The translations under genes and the position numbers were made by a program. Shown piece after piece: positions 16,578 through 61,596 of a stretch of DNA of 64,000 bases. How positions within the stretch are numbered: position 1 is the stretch's first letter; every line of letters begins with the position of its first letter. This DNA is from Burkholderia sp. USMB20 (GTDB lineage: Bacteria; Pseudomonadota; Gammaproteobacteria; Burkholderiales; Burkholderiaceae), in NCBI RefSeq assembly GCF_000949135.2, contig NZ_JTAN02000021.1, positions 434,001-498,000 of the forward strand, given 5' to 3'. The notes beneath the pieces are model-generated. The model did no database searches. It was not told the DNA's origin and saw only the letters and a list, made by a program, of their open reading frames with translations.

Positions 16578-16718
16578 TGGTTGCCACGGTCGGGGCGCGT
16601 CTTGTTCGCGACGGACGAGACGGGCCGCTGGATCGTGGGCGCGAACAAAACAACAGCCCTGTACCGGTGAGTAGCCTTCGCTCGTGGAACAACGAGCGAT
16701 CGGCTTAAGGAGACTGCA

Positions 16719-42716: not shown

Positions 42717-42755
42717 ACCGGCGCAAGCGCCCGCTTTATTTCGAATTCCAAAACG

Positions 42756-44351
42756 ATGTCTTCTTTCGATTTCTCGCCACCCGAGATCCGGCCGCGCAGC
42801 CGCTGGATCCCGTCTCTCGTCTGGATCGTGCCGCTCGTTTGCGCGCTGATCGGGCTGTCGCTCGTGATCCGGACCGTCACCGCCAACGGTCCGGCGATCA
42901 CGGTCACGTTCGCCAACGCCGAGGGCCTCGAAGCCGGCAAGACCAAGGTCCGCTACAAGGACGTCGATATCGGCTCCGTCCAGACCATCACGCTCACCCC
43001 TGATTTCAAGCGCGTGGTCGTCGGCATTCAGCTGACGCACGACGCCGCGCGCTTCGCGAACCGCGACACGCGCTTCTGGGTCGTTCGACCGCGCGTCGGT
43101 GCCACCGGCATTTCCGGCCTCGGCACGCTGCTCTCCGGCGCATTCATCGGCGCGGATCTTGGCCGCTCGTCGCAGAAGCAGACCGATTTCACCGGTCTCG
43201 AGACGCCGCCCGCCGTCACCACGGACCAGCAGGGCCGACGCTTTCTGCTGCACGGCGACTCGCTGGGCTCGGTCGACATCGGCTCGCCGGTGTTCTACCG
43301 GCATGTGCAGGTCGGTCAGGTCGTGGGATTCTCGCTCGACAAGGACGGTACCGGCGTCGACGTTCAGGCGTTCGTGAAAGCGCCCTACGACAAGTACGTC
43401 AGCGTCAATACGCGCTGGTGGCACGCGAGCGGCGTGGATCTTCGGCTCGATTCGAGCGGCCTGAAACTCAACACGCAGTCGCTGGCGACCGTGATCGTCG
43501 GCGGTCTCGCGTTTCAGTCGCCGCCCGGACAAGCGGACGCGCCGCAGGCAGCCGACAACACGCCGTTCCGGCTCGCCCCCGACGAAGCCGACGCGATGCG
43601 CGACCCCGACGGCACGCCGCTGATGGTCGTCATGCGCTTCGACCAGTCGCTGCGCGGGCTGTCGGTCGGCGCGCCGGTCGATCTGCGGGGCATCGTGCTC
43701 GGTCAGGTCACGAACATCGGGATCGAGTACAACGAACACACGCGCAACTTCAGCATGAAGGTCGCGATGGCGCTGTATCCGTCGCGACTGAGCCGACACA
43801 GCGATACGGCGCTGCCCGCGCCCGATACGGCCGGCGGCCACGAACTGCTCGAGCACCTGGTGCTCCAGGGGCTGCGCGGGCAGTTGCGTACCGGCAGCCT
43901 GCTGACCGGTCAGCTCTATGTGGCGCTCGACATGTTCCCGAAGGCGCCGCACGCGAGCGTGGACGCGCGCCGCACGCCGGTGGAACTGCCGACCGTGCCC
44001 AACACGCTCGACGAACTGCAGGTGCAGATCGCCGACATCGCGCGCAAGCTCGATCAGGTGCCGTTCGACCGGATCGGCAACAATCTGAACGGCGCGCTCG
44101 CGCATGCGAACCAGTTGTTCGGTCACCTCGATGAGCAGGTCGTGCCGCAGGCGCGCGACACGCTGGCCGCCGCGCAACGCACGTTCAGCGCGGCAGAGTC
44201 GACGTTGGGGCAGAATTCGCCGATGCAGTCGGACGTTCATGAGGCGATGCAGTCGCTCACGCAAACGCTGCAGTCGTTGAATGCGCTTGCGGACTATCTG
44301 GAACGTCATCCCGAATCGCTGCTGTTCGGCAAGAAGGGAGACCGCCAATGA
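42756..44351 (+). CDS. pqiB: PqiB-type MCE-domain protein
   Basis: The 531-residue protein has one N-terminal membrane helix (SLVWIVPLVCALIGLSLVIR) and successive MCE/MlaD domains (ITVTFANAEGLEAGKTKVRY, SLGSVDIGSPVFYRHVQVGQ, LRGLSVGAPVDLRGIVLGQV), with a helical C-terminal region including LDELQVQIADIARKL. E. coli PqiB is similar in length, has three MCE domains, and forms a hexameric needle that carries lipid across the periplasm. The pqiC-like gene overlaps its end (ATGA), so the two are translated together. Confidence 0.9.
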   Translation: MSSFDFSPPEIRPRSRWIPSLVWIVPLVCALIGLSLVIRTVTANGPAITVTFANAEGLEAGKTKVRYKDVDIGSVQTITLTPDFKRVVVGIQLTHDAARFANRDTRFWVVRPRVGATGISGLGTLLSGAFIGADLGRSSQKQTDFTGLETPPAVTTDQQGRRFLLHGDSLGSVDIGSPVFYRHVQVGQVVGFSLDKDGTGVDVQAFVKAPYDKYVSVNTRWWHASGVDLRLDSSGLKLNTQSLATVIVGGLAFQSPPGQADAPQAADNTPFRLAPDEADAMRDPDGTPLMVVMRFDQSLRGLSVGAPVDLRGIVLGQVTNIGIEYNEHTRNFSMKVAMALYPSRLSRHSDTALPAPDTAGGHELLEHLVLQGLRGQLRTGSLLTGQLYVALDMFPKAPHASVDARRTPVELPTVPNTLDELQVQIADIARKLDQVPFDRIGNNLNGALAHANQLFGHLDEQVVPQARDTLAAAQRTFSAAESTLGQNSPMQSDVHEAMQSLTQTLQSLNALADYLERHPESLLFGKKGDRQ

Positions 44352-45049
44352 AAGCGCGTTCGTTCGGTCGTCTCCGTATGCCGGCGCGCATCGCGACGTC
44401 CGTCGCACTCGCGGTGCTGAGCGCGTGCGCGTCGCCGCCGGTGCATTTCCATACCCTCGCGGTGGCGGACGATGCGGGTGCCGCGGCCGCCGCATCGCAT
44501 CCCGCCTGGCTGATCGACATCCAGGCCGTGCACGTCGTGGCGCCTGCGGACGGCAACCGGCTCGTCGTGCAACGCGGCCCCGATCGGGCCGACATCCTGG
44601 AGCAGGAGCGCTGGGCCGCGCCGCTCGGCGACGAGATGCGCGGCGGACTGTCGACGCGCGTCGCGTCCCGGCTCGGCACGATCGATGTTCATCGCGTCGC
44701 CCACCCGGACGGCGCGCCCGTCTACCGGGTCGCGGTGGACGTCCAGCGAATCGAATCCTGGCCGGCATCGCACGTGCTGCTCGATGCGACGTGGAGTGTG
44801 AGTTCCGGGTCCGGACAGCCGGCACTGACGTGCCGCAGCATCGTTCGGTCCGGTGCGTCGACGGGCTACGAAGCACTCGTCGACGCGCAGCGTCGCGCGC
44901 TCGATGCGCTCGCGCTCGGGATCGCCGCGGGCATTCGCGCGGCGGCCGCGCATGCCGCGCCGCCGGCCGATTGCCGCGCGGGCGCACCCGGGCGCCCGAT
45001 CACGCCCCCCGCTGTCGATCGCGGCGCGCCGGACGCGCTCGACGATTGA
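44348..45049 (+). CDS. pqiC: PqiC-type ABC-transport auxiliary lipoprotein
   Basis: This 233-residue protein has a lipoprotein signal (LAVLSACASPPVHF) and the fold of the YmbA/PqiC auxiliary component: FHTLAVADD near the mature N-terminus, DNRLVVQRGPDRADIL-type strand, ERWAAPLGDEM and a C-terminal helix. It anchors the PqiB tunnel at the outer membrane. The start overlaps pqiB (ATGA at 44348-44351). Confidence 0.87.
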   Translation: MKARSFGRLRMPARIATSVALAVLSACASPPVHFHTLAVADDAGAAAAASHPAWLIDIQAVHVVAPADGNRLVVQRGPDRADILEQERWAAPLGDEMRGGLSTRVASRLGTIDVHRVAHPDGAPVYRVAVDVQRIESWPASHVLLDATWSVSSGSGQPALTCRSIVRSGASTGYEALVDAQRRALDALALGIAAGIRAAAAHAAPPADCRAGAPGRPITPPAVDRGAPDALDD

Positions 45050-45130
45050 ATCTGCGCCGTGACGACGCGACATTTCCCGCGGCGCGATATCGCGCCGCTT
45101 CAGCCCTTTCCACTGCACGGACAGCCCAGG

Positions 45131-45625
45131 ATGAAACCCGCCCGCCTCACCCGTATGCAGCGCCGGCTCGACACCCGCGAACGGCTCATCGCCGCCGCTC
45201 GCGAATGCTTCATCGCGAACGGCTTCGCCGATACGACCGTCGAGCACATCGTCGAACGCGCTGGCTATACGCGCGGCGCGTACTATGCGAACTTCGGGCA
45301 CAAGCGCGAGCTGTTGATCGAAATCCTGCGTCGCGACCGCCCGAAATTACTGGCGAAAATGCGGCCGGCAGCGCATGAGCACCGAGGCTCCCACACCGCC
45401 GGCTCCGCAGACATCGCCGCCGGCTGGGAATGTTTCCCGCTGTGGGTCGAGGTGCACCTGTACGCGCTGCGCGATGCCGGGATCCGGCAGATCGTCGACC
45501 GGCTGCACGCCGAGCCGGCGCCGCCGGCTGCGGCGAGCGATACGGCAGACGCGTCGGAGCGCATGCCATCGTCGGCCGAATGCGCGGCAGTGCTCGGCGT
45601 TGCGCTGATGCGTGCCGGTGCGTAG
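45131..45625 (+). CDS. TetR-family regulator, short
   Basis: The N-terminal DNA-binding region is clear: LDTRERLIAAARECFIANGF, TTVEHIVERAGYTRGAYYANF, KRELLIEIL. From ATG 45131 the product has only 164 residues, about 30-40 fewer than a typical TetR, and the effector domain ends soon after a Ala/Pro-rich stretch. An upstream GTG at 45059 would add 24 residues. In the same frame beyond the TAG at 45623 the codons continue open for about 35 more residues, so a nonsense truncation is possible. It follows pqiC on the same strand and converges with the next TetR gene. Confidence 0.72.
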   Translation: MKPARLTRMQRRLDTRERLIAAARECFIANGFADTTVEHIVERAGYTRGAYYANFGHKRELLIEILRRDRPKLLAKMRPAAHEHRGSHTAGSADIAAGWECFPLWVEVHLYALRDAGIRQIVDRLHAEPAPPAAASDTADASERMPSSAECAAVLGVALMRAGA

Positions 45626-45771
45626 TACGCACGGCACGAAGAGCTGACCCAGGACACCGCGATGCGTGCGCGGGCTGAACGGTGCACGCCAGGCCCGGCG
45701 CCCGAGTTAGCGGCCGGGTACCACACGAGCGCACGCGGTGGCTTGGCCGCCGCCTGCGTCACCCCATTACG

Positions 45772-46521
45772 TCACTGCGCCGTCTCGGCCGCATCCACAA
45801 CGGGCAGCGGCCGGCTTGCGATCTTCTCGGCTTCCGCACGCTTGAGCCCCAGCGTATGCAGCAGCGTCGCCGCCGTGCGTTCCGGAAAGTGCTCTCCGCT
45901 GAAGCCGAGTTCCTTCAGGACACCCGCTGCCGGTGCGCCCGGAGCGACGAAGTTGAGTTCGGCGGCAATCGCGGTCAGCACCGTACCGCCGACCGAAAGG
46001 AAGCCGACGAATGGGTCGGCGACCACGAAGCGTTTCTCGGCGATACCGCGCTCCATGTCCCGCAGCAGGCGTTGACCCAGGCCGAGCGTCAGGACGCGCG
46101 CCGAAAAGCCCTCGCGTATCAGGAAGTGTCCCCACACCGGCTCGCGCCGCGCGCGCATCAGCGTATGTCGCACCGAGACGGAAATGATTTCCGCCGGGTC
46201 GGACAAGCCGCTGGCCACGCGATCGAGCGAATCCGCGAACTCCTCGAATACCGATTCCACGAGGGTCGCGTAGATCGCCTCCTTCGATTCGAAGTGGTTG
46301 TAGAACGAGCCGAAGCCGACGTCGGCGGCCTCGGTGATTTCGTTGATGGCGACGCCTTCCATGCCCTTCTCGGCCATCAGTCTGAGCGCGGCATCCAGCA
46401 GGCGGGCACGGGTCTCCCGCTTGCGGCGCGCGCCACGCGGCTCGCGCTCTTCGGCGACCGCGGGACTGGATGCTTCCGGAGCGGAGCGCTTTGGTGTGCG
46501 GCGGCTCGGTGTATTCGTCAT
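45772..46521 (-). CDS. TetR-family repressor of the divergent aromatic cluster
   Basis: The 249-residue protein is a close paralogue of the TetR at 34346-35110 along its whole length. Its recognition region (INEITEAADVGFGSFYNHFE) is nearly identical, and so are SGLSDPAE, SVRHTLMRARRE, REGFSAR and RFVVADPF. A basic proline-rich tail precedes the domain. The promoter TTGTCA-N17-TATACT on the minus strand gives a 20-base leader with AAGGA before ATG 46521. It is divergent from the dioxygenase-to-Mo-enzyme cluster, its expected target. The shared recognition helix suggests that the two TetR proteins can bind each other's operator. Confidence 0.92.
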   Translation of the reverse strand: MTNTPSRRTPKRSAPEASSPAVAEEREPRGARRKRETRARLLDAALRLMAEKGMEGVAINEITEAADVGFGSFYNHFESKEAIYATLVESVFEEFADSLDRVASGLSDPAEIISVSVRHTLMRARREPVWGHFLIREGFSARVLTLGLGQRLLRDMERGIAEKRFVVADPFVGFLSVGGTVLTAIAAELNFVAPGAPAAGVLKELGFSGEHFPERTAATLLHTLGLKRAEAEKIASRPLPVVDAAETAQ

Positions 46522-46548
46522 GACGTTTTCGATCCTTGTTCGTGCCCA

Positions 46549-46599
46549 AGTATAGATTCAAACGTCTACATTGACAAAGTCATCATCTATGATTTTAAT
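46549..46599. promoter_or_regulatory. Overlapping divergent promoters (tetR / aromatic cluster)
   Basis: Plus strand: TTGACA (46571-46576), 17 bases, TTTAAT (46594-46599). Minus strand: TTGTCA (46572-46577), 17 bases, TATACT (46549-46554). As at 35117-35167, the -35 boxes overlap by five bases and TATGA precedes TTTAAT. Inverted arms ATAGAT (46552-46557) and ATCTAT (46585-46590) flank the core. Confidence 0.8.
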
Positions 46600-46670
46600 G
46601 TCATCAAGGACGGCAGAACACGGCCTCGAGAACCGATCGAACGACGAATGGAGATACGGTGGAGACACAC

Positions 46671-46979
46671 ATGCACACGGGCGCCAGCGCGTCCATTCAC
46701 AACAGCTCGCACGCGTCGCCGAAGTGCGGGCTGCCTTCGATGCTCGGCGTATTGATCGCAGGATTCACGCCGGTCGGCGCCGCATCGGGCCATTTTTCGG
46801 CCAGTCACGGCGCCGGCGGCGAGGCGCGCCGCTCCCATGCGAAATCGACGAGCGACCTCGCGACATTCGTGGTCCGGCCAGTGATGTCCTGCGACGGTGA
46901 GATTGCATGCCCGCCGTTGCGCGGCAAGCCCCTCGATGCGACGGCGCCCGCCTTCGCAATTGTCATTCGACCTGCCTGA
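46671..46979 (+). CDS. Hypothetical 102-residue ORF in the leader of the aromatic cluster
   Basis: GGTGGAG lies six bases before ATG 46671 and the stop falls 12 bases before the dioxygenase start, so the spacing fits a first operon gene. The product is Ser/Ala/His-rich with one hydrophobic stretch (LGVLIAGFTPVGAASG), three Cys and no family I recognise. It could equally be a chance frame inside a leader of about 390 bases that otherwise holds nothing I can name. Confidence 0.3.
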   Translation: MHTGASASIHNSSHASPKCGLPSMLGVLIAGFTPVGAASGHFSASHGAGGEARRSHAKSTSDLATFVVRPVMSCDGEIACPPLRGKPLDATAPAFAIVIRPA

Positions 46980-46991
46980 TTGTCATCCGCC

Positions 46992-48062
46992 ATGAAACTG
47001 ACCACCACACAACCGGCTCGCCACCCGCACCCCACGACGAAGGCATCGGCGCTCGCCTATCTGATCTTCGATCGCCCCGATCTCGACGAAGCAGAGCACT
47101 TTCTCAACGACTTCGGTCTCCGAACGGTGCTGCGGGATGACACGCAATTGCTGCTGCGCGGAACCGGCAGCGCACACTTCTGTTATGTCGTTCGCCACGC
47201 GCCGAAGGCCCGCTTCGTAGGCTTCGGATTGCAGGTCGACAGTCGTGCCGATCTCGAGGCGCTCGCCAAAATCCCTGGCGCGTCGGAGATCGAGGCATCG
47301 GATTGGCCAGGCGGCGGCCTCCGGGTGCGGCTCGCCGATCCGTCGGGTTTTCGGGTCGACGCGATTGCCGGCCAGACCCGGGCCGACACGTTGCCGCATC
47401 GTGCCGCGCTTTCATTCAACTCGGTCGACACGCCGTTGCGGATCAACGAAACGCAGCGGCCGCCGGCGAGCGCGCCTGAAGTCATTCGGCTCGGACACGT
47501 CGTGCTCGAACTCGCCGACTACCAGGAAACCTGCGCGTGGTACACGCGACATTTCGGGTTCATCCCCAGCGATGTCCAGGTGCTGCCGGACGGCTCACCC
47601 GCGGTTGCCTTCATGCGGCTCGATCTCGGCGACCGGCCGGCCGACCACCATACGCTCGCGCTCGCCCAGGGGTTCGTGCCGACTTATAGCCATAGCGCGT
47701 ACGAACTGGTCGACGCCGATGCCGTCGGCATGGGCCAGCGCACGCTCCGCGACAACGGGTGGGCACACGCGTGGGGCATCGGCCGACACATTCTCGGCAG
47801 CCAGATCTTCGATTATTGGCAGGACCCGTGGGGCGACAAGCACGAACACTATTGCGACGGCGACCTGTTCACGGCCGACGAGCCGACGGGCGTGCACGCG
47901 GTCAGCCGCGAAGCGATGGCGCAGTGGGGCCCGACGATGCCGCGCAGCTTCACGAAGCCCCGGCTCACGCCGTCGAGCCTTGCGGCGCTGTTCCGCAACC
48001 TGCGCCGCAGTCCCGATCTGACGGTCAGCAAGCTGCTGACCCTGGCGAAGCTGTTCGCCTGA
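46992..48062 (+). CDS. Extradiol-type VOC-superfamily dioxygenase
   Basis: The 356-residue protein has two tandem VOC domains. The C-terminal one carries the 2-His-1-carboxylate iron site of type I extradiol dioxygenases: His169 (RLGHVVLEL), His234 (YSHSAYEL) and Glu285 (KHEHYC). These enzymes open catecholic rings beside the two hydroxyls using O2. The ATG at 46992 was taken; a TTG four codons upstream is possible and neither has a good ribosome site. It is followed by FAH-family and acyl-CoA synthetase genes, and four genes downstream lie the Mo hydroxylase subunits. I infer that it cleaves a trihydroxylated or catecholic product of that enzyme. Confidence 0.87.
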   Translation: MKLTTTQPARHPHPTTKASALAYLIFDRPDLDEAEHFLNDFGLRTVLRDDTQLLLRGTGSAHFCYVVRHAPKARFVGFGLQVDSRADLEALAKIPGASEIEASDWPGGGLRVRLADPSGFRVDAIAGQTRADTLPHRAALSFNSVDTPLRINETQRPPASAPEVIRLGHVVLELADYQETCAWYTRHFGFIPSDVQVLPDGSPAVAFMRLDLGDRPADHHTLALAQGFVPTYSHSAYELVDADAVGMGQRTLRDNGWAHAWGIGRHILGSQIFDYWQDPWGDKHEHYCDGDLFTADEPTGVHAVSREAMAQWGPTMPRSFTKPRLTPSSLAALFRNLRRSPDLTVSKLLTLAKLFA

Positions 48063-48098
48063 TCCCCAACCGCCCATTCGACTCACGAGAGATCATTC

Positions 48099-49055
48099 AT
48101 GTCACTGCATGTCCTGCACTTCCGGCATCATGGCCGCGCCCAATGGGGCGTGGTCGCCAACGGCGCCGTCACGCCGATTCCCGGCGACTTCGAGACAACC
48201 GCGAGCTTTCTCGCGGCGAATCCGGTTGAACGACTCGTCTCGCTCGACGGACCGACGATTCCGGAGTCGGACGTGGAGTGGCTGTCACCGGTGACCGCCA
48301 ACCAGCAGTTCGTTTGCCAGGGGGCGAATTACCGTCGCCACATGATCGAATCGGGCATGGATCCGGACGCGAAAAAGTTCAACATGATCTTCACGAAGGC
48401 GACGAGTTGCATCGTCGCCGCCGACTCACGAGTCGTGAAACCCCGGCACGTCCGGTTTCTCGACTACGAAATCGAGCTCGGCCTCATCCTCAAACGCGAC
48501 ATCACGTCTCATCGGCAGATCACGGACGCGAACCTGCACGACTATGTCGCCGGCACCGTGATCGTCAACGACTATTCCGCGCGCGATGTCCAGATCCCGC
48601 AGATGCAGTTCTACAAGGGCAAGAGCTTCCGGACGTTCGGCCCGGTCGGCCCCTATCTGTGCCTGCTCGAGCGGCATGACTTCCCGAAGCTGAAGGCGCT
48701 CGACCTGACGTTGACCGTCAACGGCGCGGTGCGCCAGCAGGACTCGACATCGAACCTCGTCTACGGTCCGGCGGAAACGTTGACCGAGTTGTCGGGCGTG
48801 CACGACCTTCGCGCCGGCGACCTGCTCGCGACCGGCACGCCGGCCGGTTGCGCACTCAGCATCCCGTCGCCGTTCAAGCAGCGGGCCGTCGCGCTTTTCC
48901 CCGAATCCGTCAAATGGAAGATGTTCATGAAGGTGCAGGCGGGGCGCGCGCAGTATCTGAAGGCCGGAGACATCGTCGAAGCCAGGATCGCGAGCCGCGA
49001 CGGATCGATCGACCTGGGCGTGCAACGTAACGAGATCGTGGACGAAGCAGCATGA
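48099..49055 (+). CDS. Fumarylacetoacetate hydrolase family protein
   Basis: The 318-residue protein belongs to the FAH superfamily: GANYRRHMIESG, the metal-binding acidic cluster in FLDYEIELGLIL, NDYSARDVQ, FRTFGPVGPY, and GDLLATGTPAGC. Members hydrolyse, hydrate, isomerise or decarboxylate ring-cleavage products such as acylpyruvates or oxalocrotonate-type acids. Directly after an extradiol dioxygenase, it most likely processes the ring-opened compound. Its stop overlaps the start of the acyl-CoA synthetase gene (ATGA), so those two are translationally coupled. Confidence 0.88.
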   Translation: MSLHVLHFRHHGRAQWGVVANGAVTPIPGDFETTASFLAANPVERLVSLDGPTIPESDVEWLSPVTANQQFVCQGANYRRHMIESGMDPDAKKFNMIFTKATSCIVAADSRVVKPRHVRFLDYEIELGLILKRDITSHRQITDANLHDYVAGTVIVNDYSARDVQIPQMQFYKGKSFRTFGPVGPYLCLLERHDFPKLKALDLTLTVNGAVRQQDSTSNLVYGPAETLTELSGVHDLRAGDLLATGTPAGCALSIPSPFKQRAVALFPESVKWKMFMKVQAGRAQYLKAGDIVEARIASRDGSIDLGVQRNEIVDEAA

Positions 49056-51046
49056 ACGGCATCGCGACCCAAGACGACGTGCTGGCGATCGAAGCGCCGG
49101 GCCTTCCGCCGGACCTTCCGGCCAGCACGTACGAGATGATCTGCGCCGGTGCGGCCATCGATCCGTCCGCCCCCGCCCTTTCCTTTTTCATGACCGCCGA
49201 CGCGCACCGCGACGCCGAGTGCTGGACCTACCGCGAGCTGGTTCGCGACATCACGCGCACGGCCAACATGTTCGCGCGCCTCGGTGTGAATTCGCAGTCG
49301 GTGATCGCTTATGTGCTGCCCAATCTGCCCGAAACGCATTTCGTGATCTGGGGCGGACAGGCAACCGGCATCGTATGCGCGATCAATCCGCTGCTTGAAG
49401 GCGAAGCGATCGGTCAGCTGCTCAAAGCCGCCGGCGCCAGCGTGCTCGTGACGCTCGCGCCATTTCCCGGGACCGATCTCTGGCAAAAAGTCGCGGACAT
49501 CCTTCATGAGGTCGAGCCGCTGCGGCATCTCGTGCTGGTCAACCTGGCCGATCGCGTGCGGGGCATGGCGCAATCGGCGGCACGCACGCTCCAGCACGAC
49601 GCGTGTGCGCAGTTGTACGGCGCTGGCGGTTTGCGCAGCGCCGTGCCTGCGCACATCCAGATCCACGACTTCGGTACGGCAATCGCGCACGAATCCGGTA
49701 CGGCGCTCGACAATGCGCGCCGCATTCAACCCGGCGACATGTCCTCTTACTTCTGTACCGGTGGAACCACCGGGTTGCCGAAAATCGCGATGCGCAGTCA
49801 CGGCAACGAAGTGGCGAATGCCTGGAGCGCCGGCCGGTTCTTCGGCGACAGTATCGGCCCCGGCAAAACGACTTTTTGCGGCTTGCCGCTCTTTCACGTC
49901 AACGCCGCGATGGTGACCGGCCTCCTGCCGTTCTCGCGCGGTGCCCATGTCGTGCTCGGCACACCGCAGGGTTACCGGGGCGACGGCGTCGTCAAACGCT
50001 TCTGGGAAATCGTCGAACATCACCACATCAATTTCTTCAGTGGCGTCCCGACGCTTTATGCTTCGCTGCTCGACATTCCCTCCGAGGATCATGTCATCGA
50101 CTCGCTCGAATACGGCCTGTGCGGTGCCGCGCCGATGCCGGTCGGCGTCTTCAGGTCCTTCCAGGAAAAAACGGGCATCCGGATTCTCGAAGGTTACGGC
50201 CTGACCGAAGGAACGTGCGTGAGCAGCGTCAACCCGCCGAACGGCGAGCGTCGGCTGGGATCAATCGGGCTTCGCATCCCCTTCCAGGCGATGAAGGCGG
50301 TCGTCGTGGACGATGCGGGACGGTATCTGCGCGACTGCGCGGCTAACGAGGAAGGATTGCTCGTGATCTCCGGGCCGAACGTGTTCACCGGCTACACGCG
50401 TGCCGACCAGAACGAGGCCCTGTGGCTCGATCTCGGCGACGGCAAGCGCTGGCTCAACACGGGCGACCTCGGCCGCTGCGACATCGACGGTTACTTCTGG
50501 CTGACCGGCCGCAAGAAGGAGTTGATCATCCGCGGCGGACACAATATCGACCCGGCGACGATCGAGGAACCGCTGCATCGACACCCGGCAGTCCAGATCG
50601 CAGCGGCGATCGGGCGCCCCGATGCCTATGCCGGTGAGTTGCCGGTCGCGTATGTTCAGCTCAAGCCGGGCATGACCGCTAGCGAACACGATCTGGAAGT
50701 GTTCATGCAGCAGGAGATCGCGGAACGCGCCGCCCTGCCCAAGCACGTCCGAATCGTCGAGACGATCCCGCTCACCGGCGTCGGCAAGATATTCAAACCC
50801 GAACTCAAGCGCCGCGAGACGAGTGACGCACTCCGCGCGGCATTGGACCAGGGCGGAGCGCCCGGCGCATCAGTCGACGTCTCGACCAGTGGTTCCGGCG
50901 GAATGTCGGTCTCGGTCGAGCTGAGCAATCCCGGGCTCGAGACTGCCGCGCGCTTCGTGCTGGGGCGTTTTCCGTTTGCGTTCTCGATCTCGTTCGCAGC
51001 GGAACCCATTCGGTCGTCCGGTCCGGCAGCGACAGATCTGCGGTGA
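49052..51046 (+). CDS. AMP-forming acyl-CoA synthetase
   Basis: The 664-residue protein has the adenylate-forming motifs: CTGGTTGLPKIAMRSH (ATP loop), GLPLFHVNAA, EGYGLTEGTC, LNTGDLGRCD, and GRKKELIIRGGHNI at the hinge, with the catalytic-Lys region VGKIFKPELKRRE. The C-terminus runs about 80 residues past the usual end and is Ser/Gly-rich with no recognised domain. It joins CoA to a carboxylic acid, presumably the acyl side chain or the acid released downstream of ring cleavage. The start overlaps the FAH-family gene. Confidence 0.9.
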   Translation: MNGIATQDDVLAIEAPGLPPDLPASTYEMICAGAAIDPSAPALSFFMTADAHRDAECWTYRELVRDITRTANMFARLGVNSQSVIAYVLPNLPETHFVIWGGQATGIVCAINPLLEGEAIGQLLKAAGASVLVTLAPFPGTDLWQKVADILHEVEPLRHLVLVNLADRVRGMAQSAARTLQHDACAQLYGAGGLRSAVPAHIQIHDFGTAIAHESGTALDNARRIQPGDMSSYFCTGGTTGLPKIAMRSHGNEVANAWSAGRFFGDSIGPGKTTFCGLPLFHVNAAMVTGLLPFSRGAHVVLGTPQGYRGDGVVKRFWEIVEHHHINFFSGVPTLYASLLDIPSEDHVIDSLEYGLCGAAPMPVGVFRSFQEKTGIRILEGYGLTEGTCVSSVNPPNGERRLGSIGLRIPFQAMKAVVVDDAGRYLRDCAANEEGLLVISGPNVFTGYTRADQNEALWLDLGDGKRWLNTGDLGRCDIDGYFWLTGRKKELIIRGGHNIDPATIEEPLHRHPAVQIAAAIGRPDAYAGELPVAYVQLKPGMTASEHDLEVFMQQEIAERAALPKHVRIVETIPLTGVGKIFKPELKRRETSDALRAALDQGGAPGASVDVSTSGSGGMSVSVELSNPGLETAARFVLGRFPFAFSISFAAEPIRSSGPAATDLR

Positions 51047-51161
51047 CGGAGGCGCGCGACTAGCCGCGACAACACAAATTCCGAGAGCGGCTTGTCACTA
51101 TCAATAAGGTATCCAAAGCAACTGTAGTTCTTTAATCGGACCGAGACAGAGGAGACGCAAA

Positions 51162-51899
51162 ATGAAATTGAGGCGAACGACGAGTTTCGCAGGTGCGATG
51201 GTCTGCATCTGCACGGCTGCACTTGCCGACAACGCAGATGCGCAGACGGCCGGAAGCATCACTACGTCGGTTGGATGGCTGCACGTCGCGCCCCAGGGCG
51301 ACGCGACGCCCCTGACCGTGCAAAGTGTCGGCGGCGTAACGGTGAATCAGCAAATGGGTGGTACCGGGGCGCATGCCAGCTCGACGGATACGATGGGCAT
51401 CACCACCGAGTACTACGTCACCGACAACATTGGTGTCGCCATGCTGTTCGGACTGCCACTGACAGTCAATCTGGTCGGTGACGGGACGTTGCAGAAGTAC
51501 GGAACCCTCGGCACGACAAGGCCGATGCCGCCCGCCATCGAACTTCGATATCACCTGTTTTCAGCTGAATCGAAATTCCGTCCGTACGTAGGACTTGGCG
51601 TCAACTACACGTGGTTCACCCAGGTTCGGGCGACCAATCGCCAGTTCGTCACCGACAGCTTCGGGCCGGGCGGCTCGGCGCGCGCGACACTCAGTTCATC
51701 GTGGAACCCGGTGTTCGAGCTCGGGGCGAGTTACGCGATGACCAAACACTGGTCGGTCGGTGCTTCCGTCGGCTACATGCCGGTGAAGACCCACCTCACG
51801 TTATACGGACAGACCGCGACCGGCACGCAGATCGTTTCCACATCGACGCTCCGACTCAATCCCGTCAACGTTTTCCTGAACGTCGCTTACACGTTCTAG
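51162..51899 (+). CDS. OmpW-family outer membrane protein
   Basis: The 245-residue protein has a signal peptide ending ADNADAQT and eight-strand barrel features of OmpW: TTSVGWLHVAPQGD in the first strand, TEYYVTDNIGVAMLFGLP, ELRYHLF, RPYVGLGVNYTWF, and the terminal aromatic VAYTF. OmpW/AlkL-type barrels let hydrophobic compounds cross the outer membrane. A strong GAGGAGA ribosome site and a separate 115-base gap suggest it can also start its own transcript. Its place inside the aromatic cluster supports uptake of a poorly soluble substrate. Confidence 0.92.
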   Translation: MKLRRTTSFAGAMVCICTAALADNADAQTAGSITTSVGWLHVAPQGDATPLTVQSVGGVTVNQQMGGTGAHASSTDTMGITTEYYVTDNIGVAMLFGLPLTVNLVGDGTLQKYGTLGTTRPMPPAIELRYHLFSAESKFRPYVGLGVNYTWFTQVRATNRQFVTDSFGPGGSARATLSSSWNPVFELGASYAMTKHWSVGASVGYMPVKTHLTLYGQTATGTQIVSTSTLRLNPVNVFLNVAYTF

Positions 51900-51953
51900 C
51901 GGGTGCGCCCCGATGCCAGCCCCCTGCATGGAAGCAACACTTCGGATCGAACG

Positions 51954-54932
51954 ATGAAACGACAGGCTCTCAAGACCATTCTTTTTGCATTGCCCAAGGT
52001 TCTGGACCTGACGGCGCGCCGCTTCCCCGCCTATCGCGATCGCCTCAAGGAGCGCAATCTCGTCGCGTGGATCGGGCTCATGGATCAAAGCATCGGTCGC
52101 GCCATCGAGTTCAGGAATGGCCGCATTCGGTCGCGCGCCGGCAAGCATGCGCGGCCCGATGTGCGCATGGCCTTCAAGGACGTCGCCACCGCCCTGAAGT
52201 TCCTTTCCCCGAACCCGGACCAGGGCGAAATCGTCCACGCCGCCAAGAACTTCAAGGTGGTCACCGAGGGCGAGGACGAACTGCTGGTTTGGCTCATGCA
52301 AACCCTGAGCGTGATGCGCACGGTCGGCCTGACGATGGGCACGCCCATGCGCGACGGCACCCGACGCTACACCACCTGTACCAATGGCGGCCCCCTGTTC
52401 GTCTACGTCAAGGATGGCCGCATCGTCCGCGTGACGCCCATCGAGCTGGACGATACGGATGCGTCAAGCTGGGTGATCGAGGCACGTGGACGCCGCTTCA
52501 GCCCGCCACGGCGCGGACTGGTCGCGCCCCACGCGTTGACCCTCAAGTCGCTGGTCTACTCCGACAAGCGCATCCTTCACCCGATGAAACGGGTCGACTT
52601 CGACCCGGACGGCGAGCGCAATCCGCAGAACCGGGGCAAGTCCGGCTATGTGCGCATCAGCTGGGACGAGGCCCTGGACATCGTCGCCAAGGAGATCAAC
52701 CGGCAGAAGCGTGTTCACGGCCCCGGTTCCATCACGTTCCCGATGTCGTCCCACCACCAGTGGGGCAACGTCGGCTACTACCTCAGCGCGCTGACGCGCT
52801 TCGCCAACCTGATCGGCTTCACCCGGGTGGCCGCGAATCCGGACAGCTGGGAAGGCTGGTACTGGGGGGCCATGCATCATTTCGGCAACTCGATGCGCGT
52901 CGGCGTGCCCGCCGGCTACGGCGGCCTCGAGGACGGTCTCAAGGAGGCCGAAATGATCGTCTTCTGGTCCTGCGACCCCGAAAGTACCAACGGGGCCTAC
53001 GCAGGATTCGAGGGAACCCCGCGCCGCCTGTGGGCCAAGGAGCTCGGCATCGAGTTCGTTCACATCGACCCGCACTGCAATCCCACCGCACAGCTGCTGG
53101 GCGGCCGCTGGATCCCGATCCGGCCGCAAACCGATGCCGCGCTGGCGACCGCCATCATGTACGTCTGGACCGTGGAGGGCCTGTACGACAAGGATTACGT
53201 CGCGACGCGCACGACCGGTTTCGACGATTGGAAAGCCTACCTTCTGGGCGAAACCGACGGTACCCCCAAGACGCCCGAGTGGCAGGAGAGCGAGACCGGC
53301 GTGCCGGCCAAGGACGCCCGTGCGCTTGCGCGCCTGTGGGGGAAGAAGAAGGTGCATCTCGCCGTCGGGATGACCGGCGCGGGATTCGGCGGCGCGGGCC
53401 GCGGGGCGACCGGCGCGCAATGGGCGCGCTGCATGATCATGATGATGTCCATGCAGGGCTGGGGCAAGCCGGGGGTGAATTTCGGCTGCCTCGAAATCGG
53501 CGTCCCGCACGATCTCCAGTTCTACTTCCCCGGCTACGCGGACGGCGGCATTTCAGGCGACCTGGCGTGGACCGCCAATGCGGTGGACAACTACCAGCGC
53601 ATGCCGCATATCCTGACCATGAATCCCGTCAAGCAAATGGTGCCGCGACAGCAGATGCCCGATGCGATTCTCAACGGTCACGCCACCGGTTATCTCTGGG
53701 ACGGCATGTCCCAGGAAGCCCAGTTTGCGCCGTTCACGTACCCGATGCCCGGCTATTCGCCGATCCACATGATCTATCGCTACGGCGGATCCGCGTTCAG
53801 TACCGTGACGAATTCCGGACGCTGGACGCAGGCCTACCGGCACTCGAGCATCGAGTTCGTCGTCAATCAGTCGATCTGGATGGAAGGCGAAGCCCAGTTC
53901 GCCGACATCATCCTGCCCGCGTGCACTTCGCTGGAGCGTTGGGACATCGGAGAATGGGCGAATTCGGGCGGCTACGCCCACCACGGGTATGGCACGGTCA
54001 ACCATCGCATGCTGACGCTGCAGCACAAGTGCATCGAACCCCTGGGCGAGTCCCGCTCCGACTACGACATTTTCACTGCCATCCTGACCCGGTTGGGCCT
54101 GGGTGGCATTTTCACCGAAGGCTGCGGGGATCTCGACTGGGTCAAGCGCGTCTTCGACTCGTCGGATCTGCCCGATCACATTTCGTGGCGCGAATTTTGC
54201 CGCAAGGGCTATTTCGTCGTGCCGCCCGAAAAGCCCGAACTGCGCCATCCCGTGGATATGCGCTGGTTTGCGGAAGACAGGAAGAAGGACCTGCCGGAAC
54301 CTCATCCCCTGCCGTCACAGTTCTCGGAACGGTTCGGCAAGGGCCTGCAGACGCCGAGCGGCAAGCTGGAGTTCGTGCCCGAGTTGCTGAAGCGGCACAC
54401 CGCGGACAATCCGGAGCGCCCCCCGCTCAACCGATATATCCCCTCCTGGGAGGGGTTGCGCTCGGACCTGGCCCGGCGCTACCCGCTGCAACTGATCGCC
54501 ACCCACAGCCGCTACAGCTTTCATACCCACGGTGACGGAAAGAATTCTGCCGTGAACGGCATCGACGATCATCGCGCGCTGATCGCGGGGCACCGGTTCT
54601 GGCTGCTGAGGCTCAATCCGGCAGACGCCGCTGCTCGATGCATCGCCCATCGCGATCTCGTCAAAGTACACAACGACCGCGGCGCCGTGATCTGTGCGGC
54701 CGATGTCTCGCCCCTGGTGAACGCCGGAGTGGTGAAATCCTACGAGGCGAGCGCTGAATTTCAGCTGATCGAAATCGATGGCGAGCAAGTCGAGATCGGC
54801 GGCTGCATGAACATGCTGACCCCCGATCGGCCGCAGACCGCCGGCACCAGCAGCATGAGCCCGAATTCCTGCCTGGTGCAGGTCGAGAAATGGCGCGGTG
54901 CCGAAGCATTCATGCTCGGTCGCGCAGCGTGA
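51954..54932 (+). CDS. Transhydroxylase-like Mo enzyme, large subunit, with SCP2-like N-terminal extension
   Basis: The 992-residue protein follows the large subunit of Pelobacter pyrogallol:phloroglucinol transhydroxylase (AthL) from about residue 140 to the end. It keeps SSHHQWGNVGY (His267/268), NPDSWEGWYWGAMH with Asp297 and Ser298 (the Mo-ligand Ser in AthL), and YFPGYADGGISGD (Tyr528 region), as in the known active site. AthL is about 875 residues; the extra N-terminal residues 1-135 resemble an SCP2 sterol-carrier fold (IGRAIEFRNGRIRSRAG, RPDVRMAFKDVATALKFL, GEDELLVWLMQTLS). No Tat leader is seen, so it is cytoplasmic. The likely reaction is O2-independent hydroxylation or hydroxyl transfer on a phenol such as resorcinol or pyrogallol. 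I started at ATG 51954; the small subunit gene follows after 10 bases. Confidence 0.88.
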   Translation: MKRQALKTILFALPKVLDLTARRFPAYRDRLKERNLVAWIGLMDQSIGRAIEFRNGRIRSRAGKHARPDVRMAFKDVATALKFLSPNPDQGEIVHAAKNFKVVTEGEDELLVWLMQTLSVMRTVGLTMGTPMRDGTRRYTTCTNGGPLFVYVKDGRIVRVTPIELDDTDASSWVIEARGRRFSPPRRGLVAPHALTLKSLVYSDKRILHPMKRVDFDPDGERNPQNRGKSGYVRISWDEALDIVAKEINRQKRVHGPGSITFPMSSHHQWGNVGYYLSALTRFANLIGFTRVAANPDSWEGWYWGAMHHFGNSMRVGVPAGYGGLEDGLKEAEMIVFWSCDPESTNGAYAGFEGTPRRLWAKELGIEFVHIDPHCNPTAQLLGGRWIPIRPQTDAALATAIMYVWTVEGLYDKDYVATRTTGFDDWKAYLLGETDGTPKTPEWQESETGVPAKDARALARLWGKKKVHLAVGMTGAGFGGAGRGATGAQWARCMIMMMSMQGWGKPGVNFGCLEIGVPHDLQFYFPGYADGGISGDLAWTANAVDNYQRMPHILTMNPVKQMVPRQQMPDAILNGHATGYLWDGMSQEAQFAPFTYPMPGYSPIHMIYRYGGSAFSTVTNSGRWTQAYRHSSIEFVVNQSIWMEGEAQFADIILPACTSLERWDIGEWANSGGYAHHGYGTVNHRMLTLQHKCIEPLGESRSDYDIFTAILTRLGLGGIFTEGCGDLDWVKRVFDSSDLPDHISWREFCRKGYFVVPPEKPELRHPVDMRWFAEDRKKDLPEPHPLPSQFSERFGKGLQTPSGKLEFVPELLKRHTADNPERPPLNRYIPSWEGLRSDLARRYPLQLIATHSRYSFHTHGDGKNSAVNGIDDHRALIAGHRFWLLRLNPADAAARCIAHRDLVKVHNDRGAVICAADVSPLVNAGVVKSYEASAEFQLIEIDGEQVEIGGCMNMLTPDRPQTAGTSSMSPNSCLVQVEKWRGAEAFMLGRAA

Positions 54933-54942
54933 GGAATGTCAA

Positions 54943-55812
54943 ATGAGCAAGTGGAACCTGATCATCAACGTCGGCCGTTGCGAGAACTGCCAGAACTGTG
55001 TGATCGCCGCGCGGGACGAGCACGTCGGCAATGACTTCCCCGGCTACGCGGCACCCGCTTCGGCCAGTGCCGAGAGCCCCATCCGCATCCTGCGTCGTGT
55101 ACAGGGTGCTTCGCACATGATCGAGACCACTTATCTGCCGGTCATGTGCAACCACTGCGACGACGCGCCCTGCATGCGTGTGGGCGGCAGCGCCATTCGC
55201 AAGCGCGCCGACGGCATCGTCATCATCGATCCGGACGAGGCGCGAGGCCGAAAGGACATCGTCAAGGCGTGCCCTTACAAGGCGATCGTGTGGAACGAAG
55301 AGCTGCAACTGCCGCAGATCTGGATCTTCGATGCGCATTTGCTCGACCAGGGCTGGTCCCGCCCGCGTTGTCAGCAGTCGTGCCCCACCGATGTCTTCGA
55401 GACGGTCAAGCTCGATGACACGGCGATGGCCGAGAAGGCCCGGCGCGAGGGACTCAAGGTATTGCGACCCAACCTGAGCACGAAGCCCCGCGTGTGGTAC
55501 AGCGGCCTCGAGCGGTGGGAAACGTGCTTCGTCGGTGGAAGCGTCAGTGCCCAGGCAGGAGACGTGGTCGAGTGTGTCACGGATGCGGTCGTCGCCTTGT
55601 ATGCAGGTAATCGGCAGGTAGCCGAAACCGTCTCGGACGGCTTCGGCGATTTCCGGTTCGACGGCCTGGCCAGGGGCAGCGGCCTCTACCGAGTCCAAAT
55701 CCGGCATGCCCGCGGCAATGCCTGGCGCGAGTGCAGATTGGGCGACAGCGCCTACCTGGGCGAGATCAGGCTCAGTCAATCGACAAACGCCGTGGCGATG
55801 GAGTGCTCGTGA
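54943..55812 (+). CDS. Transhydroxylase-like Fe-S small subunit with lost cluster ligands
   Basis: The 289-residue protein matches the AthS/RhS-type electron-transfer subunit: Cys13, 16 and 19 in RCENCQNC, Cys69, 72 and 77 (CNHCDDAPC), Cys110, and Cys143/147 (RCQQSC). The C-terminus is a transthyretin-like Ig barrel (VTDAVVALYAGNRQVAETVS, GDFRFDGLARGSGLYRVQI), a feature of this family. The fourth Cys of the first motif is Ala23, and the CxxC that normally precedes AHLL is replaced by IWIFD (residues 126-130). So at least one and perhaps two clusters cannot form in the standard way. A GAGGA site precedes ATG 54943. Confidence 0.88.
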   Translation: MSKWNLIINVGRCENCQNCVIAARDEHVGNDFPGYAAPASASAESPIRILRRVQGASHMIETTYLPVMCNHCDDAPCMRVGGSAIRKRADGIVIIDPDEARGRKDIVKACPYKAIVWNEELQLPQIWIFDAHLLDQGWSRPRCQQSCPTDVFETVKLDDTAMAEKARREGLKVLRPNLSTKPRVWYSGLERWETCFVGGSVSAQAGDVVECVTDAVVALYAGNRQVAETVSDGFGDFRFDGLARGSGLYRVQIRHARGNAWRECRLGDSAYLGEIRLSQSTNAVAMECS

Positions 55813-55856
55813 TCCGGGCGAGACTGGACGCCGCGGTGACCGACGGTGAACGAATC

Positions 55857-57574: not shown

Positions 57575-58903
57575 TCAGCGCGCGGCCGCCGTCGCCTTGC
57601 GGAGTTTCGCGACCTCCGCCGCCTGCACGGCCGGCGCGCCGTTGTTCCAGCCGGCGCGCATGAACGTCAGCACGTCGGCGATCTGCTGGTCGTTCAGCTG
57701 GTTCGCGAACGCCGGCATCGGGTACGCGGACGGCACGCCACCGATCACGAGCGACTCGCTGCCGTTCAACGTCACGTTGATCAGCGACGCGGCATCGGCC
57801 TCGAGCACGTTCGGGTTGCCGGCGAGCGGCGCGAGCAGCGGCGCGTAGCCGCGGCCGTCCGCGCCATGACAATGCAGGCAGTAAGCGTTATACACCTTTG
57901 CGCCCGGATCGTTCGCCGGCCGGCCCAACACGACCTGCGTCGCCTTCGGCTCATAACGGTAAGGCGGCGCGCCCGTGCCGCCCGCTGCCGGCAGCGATTT
58001 CAGGTAGCGGGACATCGCCGCCAGATCGTCGTCGGTCAGTTCCTGCGTGCTGTGGTTGATCACGCTGACCATCGAGCCGAACGCGGTCGCATGCCGGTTC
58101 GCGCCGGTCTTCAGGAATTGCGCGATATCCGCATCGCTCCAGCGGCCCAGCCCGGTATTGTGCTCGCCGGTCAGGTTCGACGCGAACCAGTTGTCGATCG
58201 GCGCGCCCGACAGGAACGCCGCACCGCCCTCGTCCAGCGCCTTCTCCTGGAAGCCGACACCGCGCGGCGTATGGCACGATCCGCAGTGCCCGAGCCCCTG
58301 CACGAGATACGCGCCGCGGTTCCACATCGCGTCCTTGGCCGGCTTGTCGGCATAAGGCGTCGTATCGAGGAACACCATGTTCCACAACGCGAGCGGCCAG
58401 CGCATGTTGAGCGGCCACGGGATGTCGGACGCCCGGTTCGCCTGCTTCACCGGCTCGACGCCGTGCATGAAGTACGCGTACAGCGCCTTCACGTCGTCGT
58501 CCTTCAGCTTCGCGTACGACGGATACGGCATCGCCGGATACAGGTTGTGGCCGTCCTTCGCGACGCCCTTGCGCAACGCGTTCGTAAAATCGGCTTCCGT
58601 ATAGCCGCCGATGCCCGTGTCCGGGTCGGGCGTGATGTTGGTCGTGTAGATCGCGCCCATCGGCGTGACCATCTTCAGGCCGCCGGCGAACGGCGTGCCG
58701 CGCGGCGCGGTGTGGCACGCGACGCAATCGCCGGCCTTCGCGAGATACGCGCCGCGTGCGACCAGCGCGCTGTCGGCGGCCGCCGCTTGCGCGGCGTGCG
58801 CCGCCGTGCCGGCCATCAGTGCGGACAGCGCGATCAACGACGTGCCGAACGTGCGAGCGGCGCGACTCAGGCGGTTCGGACGATTCGAGGTGAGGTTTCG
58901 CAT
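57575..58903 (-). CDS. Three-haem cytochrome c (alcohol/aldehyde dehydrogenase electron acceptor)
   Basis: The 442-residue protein has a signal peptide ending AAHAAQ and three CxxCH haem sites: DCVACHT, HCGSCHT and YCLHCHG, each in a cytochrome-c-type domain. It matches the cytochrome subunit of membrane-bound alcohol, gluconate or aldehyde dehydrogenases. Encoded 16 bases after the large molybdoenzyme subunit gene on the same strand, it is the likely electron acceptor of that enzyme, passing electrons to quinone or the oxidase. Confidence 0.92.
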   Translation of the reverse strand: MRNLTSNRPNRLSRAARTFGTSLIALSALMAGTAAHAAQAAAADSALVARGAYLAKAGDCVACHTAPRGTPFAGGLKMVTPMGAIYTTNITPDPDTGIGGYTEADFTNALRKGVAKDGHNLYPAMPYPSYAKLKDDDVKALYAYFMHGVEPVKQANRASDIPWPLNMRWPLALWNMVFLDTTPYADKPAKDAMWNRGAYLVQGLGHCGSCHTPRGVGFQEKALDEGGAAFLSGAPIDNWFASNLTGEHNTGLGRWSDADIAQFLKTGANRHATAFGSMVSVINHSTQELTDDDLAAMSRYLKSLPAAGGTGAPPYRYEPKATQVVLGRPANDPGAKVYNAYCLHCHGADGRGYAPLLAPLAGNPNVLEADAASLINVTLNGSESLVIGGVPSAYPMPAFANQLNDQQIADVLTFMRAGWNNGAPAVQAAEVAKLRKATAAAR

Positions 58904-58919
58904 GGTTCGTGTCCTCCCC

Positions 58920-61139: not shown

Positions 61140-61140
61140 G

Positions 61141-61596
61141 TCATGCCCCCTTCGCGGCGTGTTTGACCGCCGCGCGAATCCGGTTGTAGGTACCACAGCG
61201 GCAGATGTTGCCGGCCATCGCCGCGTCGATGTCGGCGTCGCTCGGGTTCGGGTTCGATGCGATCAGCGCGGTGGCCGCCATCACCTGCCCGGACTGGCAA
61301 TAGCCGCACTGGACGACGTCGAGCTCGCGCCATGCCTGCTGGACCTTCTGCCCGGCCGGCGTCGCGCCGACGGCTTCGATCGTCGTGATCTTGCGGCCCG
61401 CGACGGCCGCGACCGGCAGCACGCACGCGCGTGCGGCGACGCCGTCGAGATGCACGGTGCACGCGCCGCATTGTGCGATCCCGCAGCCGAATTTCGTGCC
61501 GGTCAGGCCGACGAGGTCGCGCAGGACCCACAGCAGGGGCATGTCGTCGGGGGCGTCGACCGTGCGGTTCTCGCCGTTGATGTTGAGGGTGACCAT
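61141..61596 (-). CDS. [2Fe-2S] small subunit of the molybdoenzyme (IorA type)
   Basis: The 151-residue protein binds two [2Fe-2S] clusters: the plant-type motif [17 protein letters not shown] plus a Cys in RACVLP, and the helical motif [10 protein letters not shown] with [11 protein letters not shown]. The ATG at 61596 has GGAGG upstream. It lies immediately before the IorB-type gene and relays electrons from the Mo centre to the cytochrome. Confidence 0.93.

Follow-up and report, generated by a model that had tools for sequence, protein, structure and literature searches.

A resorcinol hydroxylase-type molybdenum enzyme in an extradiol ring-cleavage operon of Burkholderia sp. USMB20

In this study, we closely examined a stretch of 64,000 nucleotides from the genome of Burkholderia sp. 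USMB20 (contig NZ_JTAN02000021.1, positions 434,001 to 498,000; here named the window) and found a discrete module of about 10.1 kb at 45673 to 55837. It consists of a divergent TetR gene and six co-directional genes (46992 to 55812) in the order VOC dioxygenase, FAH hydrolase, acyl-CoA synthetase (ACS), OmpW, and the large (MoL) and Fe-S small (FeS) subunits of a molybdenum (Mo) enzyme. In our judgment, the module is probably an operon, linked to a TetR gene, for the catabolism of a lipophilic phenol, in which a Mo pair of the resorcinol hydroxylase (RhLS) type replaces a flavin hydroxylase and gives a hybrid route. Such a route, with O2-free hydroxylation followed by O2-dependent cleavage, is well supported by the comparison of gene sequences. 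What the sequences contribute is the gene content, the active-site residues, the flavin-to-Mo replacement and, as a predicted model, an SCP2 fold.

Gene content and boundaries of the module

An earlier note on this DNA had described the Mo pair as sharing a cluster with an extradiol VOC dioxygenase, an FAH hydrolase, an ACS and OmpW. The open reading frames are present at the following positions, and the family profiles agree with these assignments.

45772 to 46521, minus strand: TetR-family regulator (TetR_C_40; PF00440, PF21306), divergent from the operon
46522 to 46991: TetR-VOC gap, the scar left by deletion of a gene for an MhpA-like flavin hydroxylase (blastn, tblastn)
46992 to 48062, plus strand: VOC-type (type I) extradiol ring-cleavage dioxygenase, 356 amino acids (PF00903; H169, H234, E285)
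48099 to 49055, plus strand: FAH-superfamily C-C hydrolase, 318 amino acids (PF01557, 162 bits)
49052 to 51046, plus strand: ACS, 664 amino acids (NCBIfam PRK07529, 927 bits, cut-off 632)
51162 to 51899, plus strand: OmpW-family outer-membrane protein (PF03922, E value 2e-28)
51954 to 54932, plus strand: RhL/AthL-type MoL, 992 amino acids (PF21423; residues 206 to 712 are the molybdopterin domain)
51954 to 52364, plus strand: predicted N-terminal SCP2-fold domain of MoL, about residues 1 to 137 (AlphaFold2 model, Foldseek)
54943 to 55812, plus strand: FeS (4v4c_B match), with a C-terminal CarboxypepD_reg-like domain below the Pfam cut-off

The FAH and ACS genes overlap by 4 bases, and a 10-base spacer separates MoL from FeS. 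Among the 25 longest matches listed, the longest, to B. ubonensis LMG 20358 and B. stagnalis LMG 28156, each form one 10.1-kb block of 94 to 95% identity with limits at 45673 to 55778 and 45686 to 55837, respectively; both loci extend past the shared block. The GC content is 0.61 to 0.65 across 46 to 56 kb, compared with 0.69 to 0.70 in flanking 2-kb intervals. In an annotated B. stagnalis replicon, the gene order is identical to that of the module.

The large subunit belongs to the RhL/AthL group

Both reference enzymes, RhL and AthL, have been described in phenol breakdown without O2. Analysis of the MoL domains revealed PF21423 AhtL-like (96.2 bits, cut-off 27) together with Molybdopterin and Molydop_binding, and the closest match in the PDB by far was pyrogallol hydroxytransferase (AthL, 4v4c_A, 919 bits), followed by dimethyl sulfoxide (DMSO) reductase (235 bits). 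MoL shows 51% identity to AthL over 841 columns and 66% identity over 980 columns to a protein of Aromatoleum (Azoarcus) anaerobium LuFRes1 (locus L056, plasmid pLuFRes1), which we infer from strain, plasmid and gene context to be the characterised RhL.

In a tree of 56 rows, in which AthL and DorA form long branches, the window falls into a 12-row group of Burkholderiaceae plus one Acetobacteraceae metagenome-assembled genome. This group is nested in a 24-row and then a 32-row group, each with a Shimodaira-Hasegawa-like approximate likelihood ratio (SH-aLRT) support of 100. The RhL group (four rows, support 99) lies outside the 32-row group, and AthL and several partial rows stand still farther out. 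The phylogeny had been set beforehand as the test able to refute the assignment, and it placed MoL inside the AthL/RhL clade, grouping with the LuFRes1 RhL and leaving AthL outside. MoL belongs to the RhL/AthL group of DMSO-reductase-family enzymes. The earlier label "transhydroxylase/resorcinol-hydroxylase-like" holds for the group as a whole, but MoL is nearer to resorcinol hydroxylase than to transhydroxylase.

Residues H267, D297-S298, Y528 and Y674 of MoL align with H144, D174-S175, Y404 and Y560 of AthL, which we take to act in the active site, with Ser as the Mo ligand; the claim that MoL keeps the Asp-Ser pair and the His and Tyr residues of AthL was thereby confirmed in the alignment. 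Across the 54 other rows of the alignment (AthL numbering, DorA left out), H144, S175 and Y404 are conserved in 54/54, D174 in 53/54 and Y560 in 52/54. The pocket positions F546/C557/I561 of AthL read L/S/A in all 24 rows of the 24-row close clade and F/C/I in AthL itself and the L056 RhL.

Two further observations concern the wider family. Pseudomaricurvus alkylphenolicus, a species named for alkylphenols, has two family members in its genome (L065 and L086), and four Pseudomonas loci (L033, L035, L036 and L037) harbor a moaA-type Mo-cofactor gene a few kb from the Mo pair.

A predicted SCP2-fold domain and a small subunit with fewer cysteines

Nothing in the matched part of AthL corresponds to residues 1 to 137 of MoL. 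This N-terminal domain could be aligned throughout 39 rows, including the window and RhL, with three of the rows beginning at residue 6. Its AlphaFold2 model reached a predicted local distance difference test score (pLDDT) of 85.7, and Foldseek matched it to the alkylsulfatase Pisa1 (E value 1.2e-5), UbiJ-SCP2 (3.3e-5) and the SCP2 protein AF1534 (4.2e-5), with a probability of 1.00 and query template modelling scores of 0.47 to 0.57 over the best twelve matches. A Pfam scan of the domain, SCP2 models included, gave no match up to an E value of 1, and a PDB sequence search with the N-terminal alignment yielded chance-like matches only. The N terminus of MoL is thus predicted from its model to be an SCP2-fold domain, absent from AthL and present in RhL. 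SCP2 domains bind lipids, and the ligand here may be a lipid substrate or a quinone.

FeS is encoded beside MoL and has its best structural match in 4v4c_B (AthS, E value 8e-59), presumably a three-cluster small subunit. Cys23, Cys126 and Cys129 of AthS are absent from 75/75 non-AthS rows, among them the partner of the L056 RhL, while eight of the other nine AthS cysteines of the aligned part are kept in 76/76 rows and Cys145 in 71. The window FeS is therefore without three of the twelve AthS cluster cysteines and does not match a three-cluster small subunit of the AthS kind; by ferredoxin logic, one of the three Fe-S clusters has probably been lost.

Ring-cleavage genes are conserved beside the Mo pair

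We surveyed the best 80 of 331 loci homologous to MoL, fetching up to 10 kb on each side. Neighborhood counts refer to the 62 loci with at least 6 kb on both sides, the other 18 having been dropped for short flanks. At a MoL identity of at least 86%, VOC, FAH, ACS and OmpW were all present in 28/28 loci and TetR in 27. Among the 17 loci of 80 to 86% identity, FAH was found in 16, ACS in 14 and VOC in 7; the 17 loci of 60 to 80% contained VOC and FAH in 9 each and ACS in none. The RhL-type loci L054, L056 and L063 showed no VOC, FAH or ACS in the surveyed stretch. Six genomes of 2.9 to 10.9 Mb carry 5 to 28 FAH genes each, which corresponds to a chance of about 2 to 6% of meeting one within 10 kb on either side. 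Since all 28 close loci keep FAH, the co-location of MoL with ring-cleavage genes exceeds chance.

These counts bear on the view that co-location with the dioxygenase is incidental and that the Mo pair acts as an ordinary resorcinol hydroxylase or is called on only when O2 is absent. Its 66% identity to the RhL of a denitrifying bacterium that degrades resorcinol would fit this view, but we consider it very improbable: the E1/E2 dehydrogenase genes flanking RhL in LuFRes1 are absent from the module, the co-location holds in every close locus and FAH lies near MoL in 16/17 of the next group, and an intact flavin hydroxylase is missing at all eight Mo-type places of the Burkholderia survey described below.

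The VOC family profile matches homoprotocatechuate 2,3-dioxygenase and BphC. Residues H169, H234 and E285 are invariant in 15/15 rows and align with the His, His and Glu of homoprotocatechuate 2,3-dioxygenase, which we take to be its iron ligands, so that the dioxygenase has a 2-His-1-carboxylate iron site. Solved relatives of the FAH protein include HpcE-type enzymes, L-2,4-diketo-3-deoxyrhamnonate hydrolase and the acylpyruvase FAHD1. Nine rhizobial loci (L023, at 16559 to 17847, and eight others) harbor two adjacent, half-length, single-domain glyoxalase-fold genes, missed by the VOC query, where other lineages have one two-domain VOC gene.

Outer-membrane or transport families of a hydrophobic type occur near MoL in 52/80 loci and vary by lineage: OmpW in Burkholderiaceae, FadL/TodX in seven rhizobial loci, and DUF1302/DUF1329/MMPL in Pseudomonas and Betaproteobacteria. 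Pfam confirmed one or two representatives per family, and for DUF1302/DUF1329 we presume the functions assigned to these families. The LuFRes1 locus instead has a periplasmic-binding gene and an ABC gene.

Sister operons carry a flavin hydroxylase in place of the Mo pair

Four plasmid records (H22, H24, H25 and H26) contain a VOC relative of 74 to 81% identity but no MoL match. On the B. multivorans plasmid (H24), the TetR gene is accompanied by MhpA-like flavin hydroxylase-VOC-FAH-ACS-OmpW, without Mo genes, and in the inspected Microvirga, Streptomyces and Prescottella loci VOC and FAH are likewise paired with an MhpA-like flavin hydroxylase.

Of 65 Burkholderia genomes, 23 carry the VOC gene, at 26 places in total, and 9 carry MoL. 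Every one of the VOC places was examined: L102 to L119 (18 loci), L120, L121, L122, L124, L125 (genome G778), and L001, L002 and L010 (genomes G001, G827 and G774). At eight of them MoL is present and no intact flavin gene was found. The remaining 18 have no MoL in the stretch, and 17 of these contain a full-length flavin gene, defined by an open frame that matches over 520 or more of the 557 residues; for L103 this match continues past a stop after about 560 open codons. Apart from these, genome G799 (L123) has MoL, matched only from about residue 65 onward, and FeS, with no VOC, FAH or ACS in a 19-kb stretch. One plasmid of Paraburkholderia sp. PGU19 carries MoL and VOC a few kb apart.

The gap between TetR and VOC in the window resembles the intact gene region of L102. 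Positions 46522 to 46784 match the upstream region and 5' end (81%), 46817 to 46916 a middle piece (71%), and 46909 to 46991 the 3' end (73%). In blastn these pieces are collinear at 2 to 262, 1183 to 1282 and 1758 to 1840 of the 1840-bp TetR-VOC region of L102, and none of 20 shuffles gave a match. By tblastn, the gap matched the open frame of L102 (E value 5e-28) and also L107 (2e-9). Judged from these alignments, the gap is a flavin gene scar with two internal deletions. A TetR operator had also been sought there, and weak inverted repeats only were found; the candidate was dropped now that the gap is read as a gene scar.

Remnants were scanned for in 36 rows, representing 34 distinct Mo-type modules (L122 equals L019 and L121 equals L061). 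A partial flavin remnant was detected in 10 of the 34, including the window, and a further one in L125; the gene is shortened in L007, where it is open over 511 residues. None of 330 codon-shuffled control sequences matched. In the opposite direction, no MoL or FeS trace was found in 19 flavin-side loci (L095 and L102 to L119), which therefore give no support for a loss of Mo genes there.

A tree of VOC plus FAH (59 rows, two of them repeats) joins five Mo rows and five flavin rows in the 10-row group of the window with support 100/99; the branching order within this group is less certain (89/62). The minimum number of changes on this tree is at least three for Mo-only versus flavin-only and four for Mo presence versus absence. 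At 4-fold sites, the window and L005 share 70% identity in MoL and 69% in FeS, followed by OmpW (61%), VOC (58%), TetR (54%), FAH (52%) and ACS (45%). MoL and FeS are less diverged than TetR, VOC, FAH and ACS, a pattern to be expected from a later transfer of the Mo genes, at a time when the other genes had already diverged.

Since the sister operons hold the flavin gene, the window keeps its scar and two relatives (L005, which is Paraburkholderia elongata, and L044) keep both genes, the most likely reading is that the flavin hydroxylase gave way to the Mo pair at one and the same step of the operon. The rows counted here are related and do not represent independent events. The hybrid route proposed earlier on the basis of the window alone gains support from this comparison, through the flavin hydroxylase of the sister operons, the intermediates with both genes and the scar.

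Proposed pathway and substrate

In the pathway that we propose, the gene content would be used as follows, the chemistry, substrate, electron path and order of steps being the inferred parts. The Mo pair would hydroxylate a resorcinol-type ring, the step performed by a flavin monooxygenase in the sister operons; if it works as RhL does, water would supply the added hydroxyl and two electrons would be released to an acceptor. VOC would then use O2 to open the ring, now bearing three hydroxyls, at a position adjacent to the substituent, FAH would split the resulting di/trioxo acid directly, and ACS would activate the released acid for beta-oxidation. From 5-alkylresorcinol-type lipids, this would yield pyruvate and a 3-oxo acid, and the classical orcinol pathway gives products of this type. 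A hydratase and an aldolase are needed after plain catechol cleavage, and neither is among the genes of the module; both may be dispensable because cleavage of a trihydroxylated ring would leave a beta-diketone, which enzymes of the FAH type can split without them.

The ligase of one Streptomyces sister operon is an acetoacetate-CoA ligase (816 bits, cut-off 521), and acetoacetate-decarboxylase-type genes flank MoL in three rhizobial and three Comamonadaceae/Pelomonas loci (one of each group confirmed by Pfam). Both fit a 3-oxo acid product, as 5-alkylresorcinols would give. The SCP2-fold domain and the hydrophobic-type transport families argue for a lipophilic substrate, and lipophilic resorcinols, such as 5-alkylresorcinols, are the likely substrates.

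The substrate could also be a polyphenol, flavonoid-like or of another kind, that contains a resorcinol ring, and the Mo pair would hydroxylate this ring before extradiol cleavage. Many hosts are, by their record titles, plant-associated Burkholderiales and rhizobia, and in the isoflavone (ifc) and naringenin (fde) pathways, as described in PMC11069340, a flavin hydroxylase and a glyoxalase-fold dioxygenase act on the A-ring. The fatty-acid-type ACS, the SCP2 fold and the acetoacetate-type ligase and decarboxylase genes fit an alkyl-chain 3-oxo acid better, and a polyphenol substrate appears unlikely to us.

Several observations weigh against a same-step replacement in an operon for lipophilic resorcinols. 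On the genetic side, the flavin gene is intact beside the Mo pair in L005 and L044, the Burkholderia genomes G812 and G819 contain both module types at separate sites, and a flavin homologue of 54 to 55% identity lies 5 to 8 kb from MoL in the Pseudomonas loci L033, L035 and L037; in view of these cases, the two enzymes may act on different compounds. L119 has a piece of the flavin gene only, without Mo genes. No flavin gene trace was found in 21 of the 34 distinct Mo-type modules. In L100, another plasmid of Paraburkholderia sp. PGU19, 118 bp of the MoL start are left after OmpW and some 3.4 kb of other DNA split the gene for the flavin hydroxylase; Mo pairs can therefore be lost too. The flavin hydroxylase relatives near MoL in Pseudomonas, and other flavin monooxygenases in some rhizobial and Acetobacteraceae MoL loci, would also be compatible with an additional hydroxylation or a different substrate. 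The pocket residues mark the clade and not a link to the dioxygenase, because F/G-or-A/L stands in eight Comamonadaceae-type rows that belong to the 32-row group and have a dioxygenase, and L/A/A in some dioxygenase-free rows (e.g., L066 and L076). The AlphaFold2 model of full-length MoL is poor (pLDDT 64.4), and the pocket comparison was made without it. As to the substrate, the SCP2 fold is no proof of a lipid, because RhL of the LuFRes1 resorcinol locus also carries the N-terminal domain; a hydrophobic-transport family was not seen in 28/80 loci, and no electron-acceptor gene is present in the module.

Some of these points would be expected if the Mo pair had been added for a second substrate or step, for instance another ring position or a co-occurring phenol, with the flavin gene lost through a switch of substrate and not through replacement at the same step. 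The genes standing together in L005 and L044, the two module types in G812 and G819 and the clade-dependent pocket would all suit such an addition, as would a second VOC gene just upstream of MoL in 10/80 loci and two VOC-FAH pairs in Pseudomonas loci. VOC, FAH, ACS and TetR are unchanged between the two types, and the VOC plus FAH tree unites Mo and flavin rows, five of each, in one well-supported group; with these results in hand, we give a second substrate or step a low probability and prefer displacement of the flavin hydroxylase at the same step.

Genes flanking the module

Directly upstream of the module, genes for PqiA, MlaD/PqiB and PqiC (ABC_trans_aux) are located at 41382 to 45049 on the plus strand. 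A link between these lipid transport genes and the module was considered and set aside: PqiB occurs in 13/28 close loci with good flanks and was not found in L001. Of the distant loci, L066 has PqiB as well. Between PqiC and the TetR gene of the module stands another gene of the TetR family, a short one (45059 to 45625, plus strand). About 2 kb downstream, at 57575 to 61531 on the minus strand, a second Mo enzyme set of another family was recognized by eye, without a profile check, with a xanthine-dehydrogenase-type large subunit, a 2Fe-2S subunit and a c-type cytochrome.

Comparison with known systems

The closest known system is RhLS of A. anaerobium LuFRes1, which resembles the window pair in its large subunit (66% identity, active-site residues, N-terminal domain) and in the same three AthS cysteines missing from its small subunit. 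It differs in that RhL adjoins 2-oxoacid-dehydrogenase-like E1/E2 genes, none of which is among the seven genes of the module, no relative of the extradiol or FAH gene was found in the LuFRes1 stretch, and its pocket is F/C/I instead of L/S/A. AthLS (PDB 4v4c) is more distant: at 51% identity, His144, Asp174, Ser175, Tyr404 and Tyr560 are conserved in MoL, whereas AthL is without the SCP2-fold domain and forms a long outside branch, and AthS retains Cys23, Cys126 and Cys129.

The B. multivorans-type operon agrees with the window module in gene order and in the families of its dioxygenase, hydrolase, synthetase and OmpW. In the orcinol pathway, hydroxylation is likewise followed by cleavage with O2. 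In flavin-type operons and pathways, a flavin enzyme using O2 and reduced nicotinamide carries out the hydroxylation, whereas the window has a Mo enzyme. The ifc and fde pathways (PMC11069340) also proceed from hydroxylation to O2 cleavage; their likeness to the window is one of pathway description, not of protein sequence.

A Mo-dependent hydroxylation and an O2-dependent extradiol cleavage are also combined in riboflavin breakdown, where, according to PMC12746152, LumJ, a water-using Mo hydroxylase of the xanthine oxidase family, acts before LumE in an aerobic N-heterocycle pathway. That pathway differs in enzyme family, in its N-heterocyclic substrate and in a Rieske dioxygenase in between, whereas the window has a DMSO-reductase-family enzyme and, by our reading, a phenol.

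A literature search over titles and the beginnings of abstracts found no description of this gene set; its coverage was partial, and a prior description is possible. In the available part of the isoflavone paper (PMC11069340), no word beginning with "molybd" occurs. No description of an SCP2 fold joined to a DMSO-reductase-family enzyme was met, although no search was aimed at that combination. What appears to be new from the sequences is the Mo-for-flavin swap with sister modules, the SCP2 fold shared with RhL and the three lost AthS cysteines.

Significance

The window presents a known kind of enzyme in a new pathway setting. More broadly, and tentatively, RhLS-type Mo pairs may be a mobile replacement part, an account that we find plausible without yet holding it to be the probable one. 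They would have moved, probably on more than one occasion, into aerobic extradiol operons that serve lipophilic resorcinols, beside a working flavin hydroxylase that became redundant and decayed. A step consuming O2 and nicotinamide would thereby have become one that uses water and yields electrons, with O2 needed only for ring opening, and the SCP2 domain would present a lipid or a quinone to the Mo site. The joining of an SCP2 fold to a DMSO-reductase-family enzyme points to the same combination in resorcinol hydroxylase itself.

In soil Burkholderia and their relatives, a Mo enzyme appears, from the operons compared, to have taken over ring hydroxylation in an O2-using ring-opening operon. 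This suggests that bacteria can swap the O2-demanding first step of a pathway for a water-using one, and the matched natural operons, differing mainly in the hydroxylase, offer a clear test system. If true, the finding would reveal a likely route by which soil and root bacteria break down alkylresorcinol-type lipids of plants, and would show catabolic pathways shedding their O2 demand step by step.

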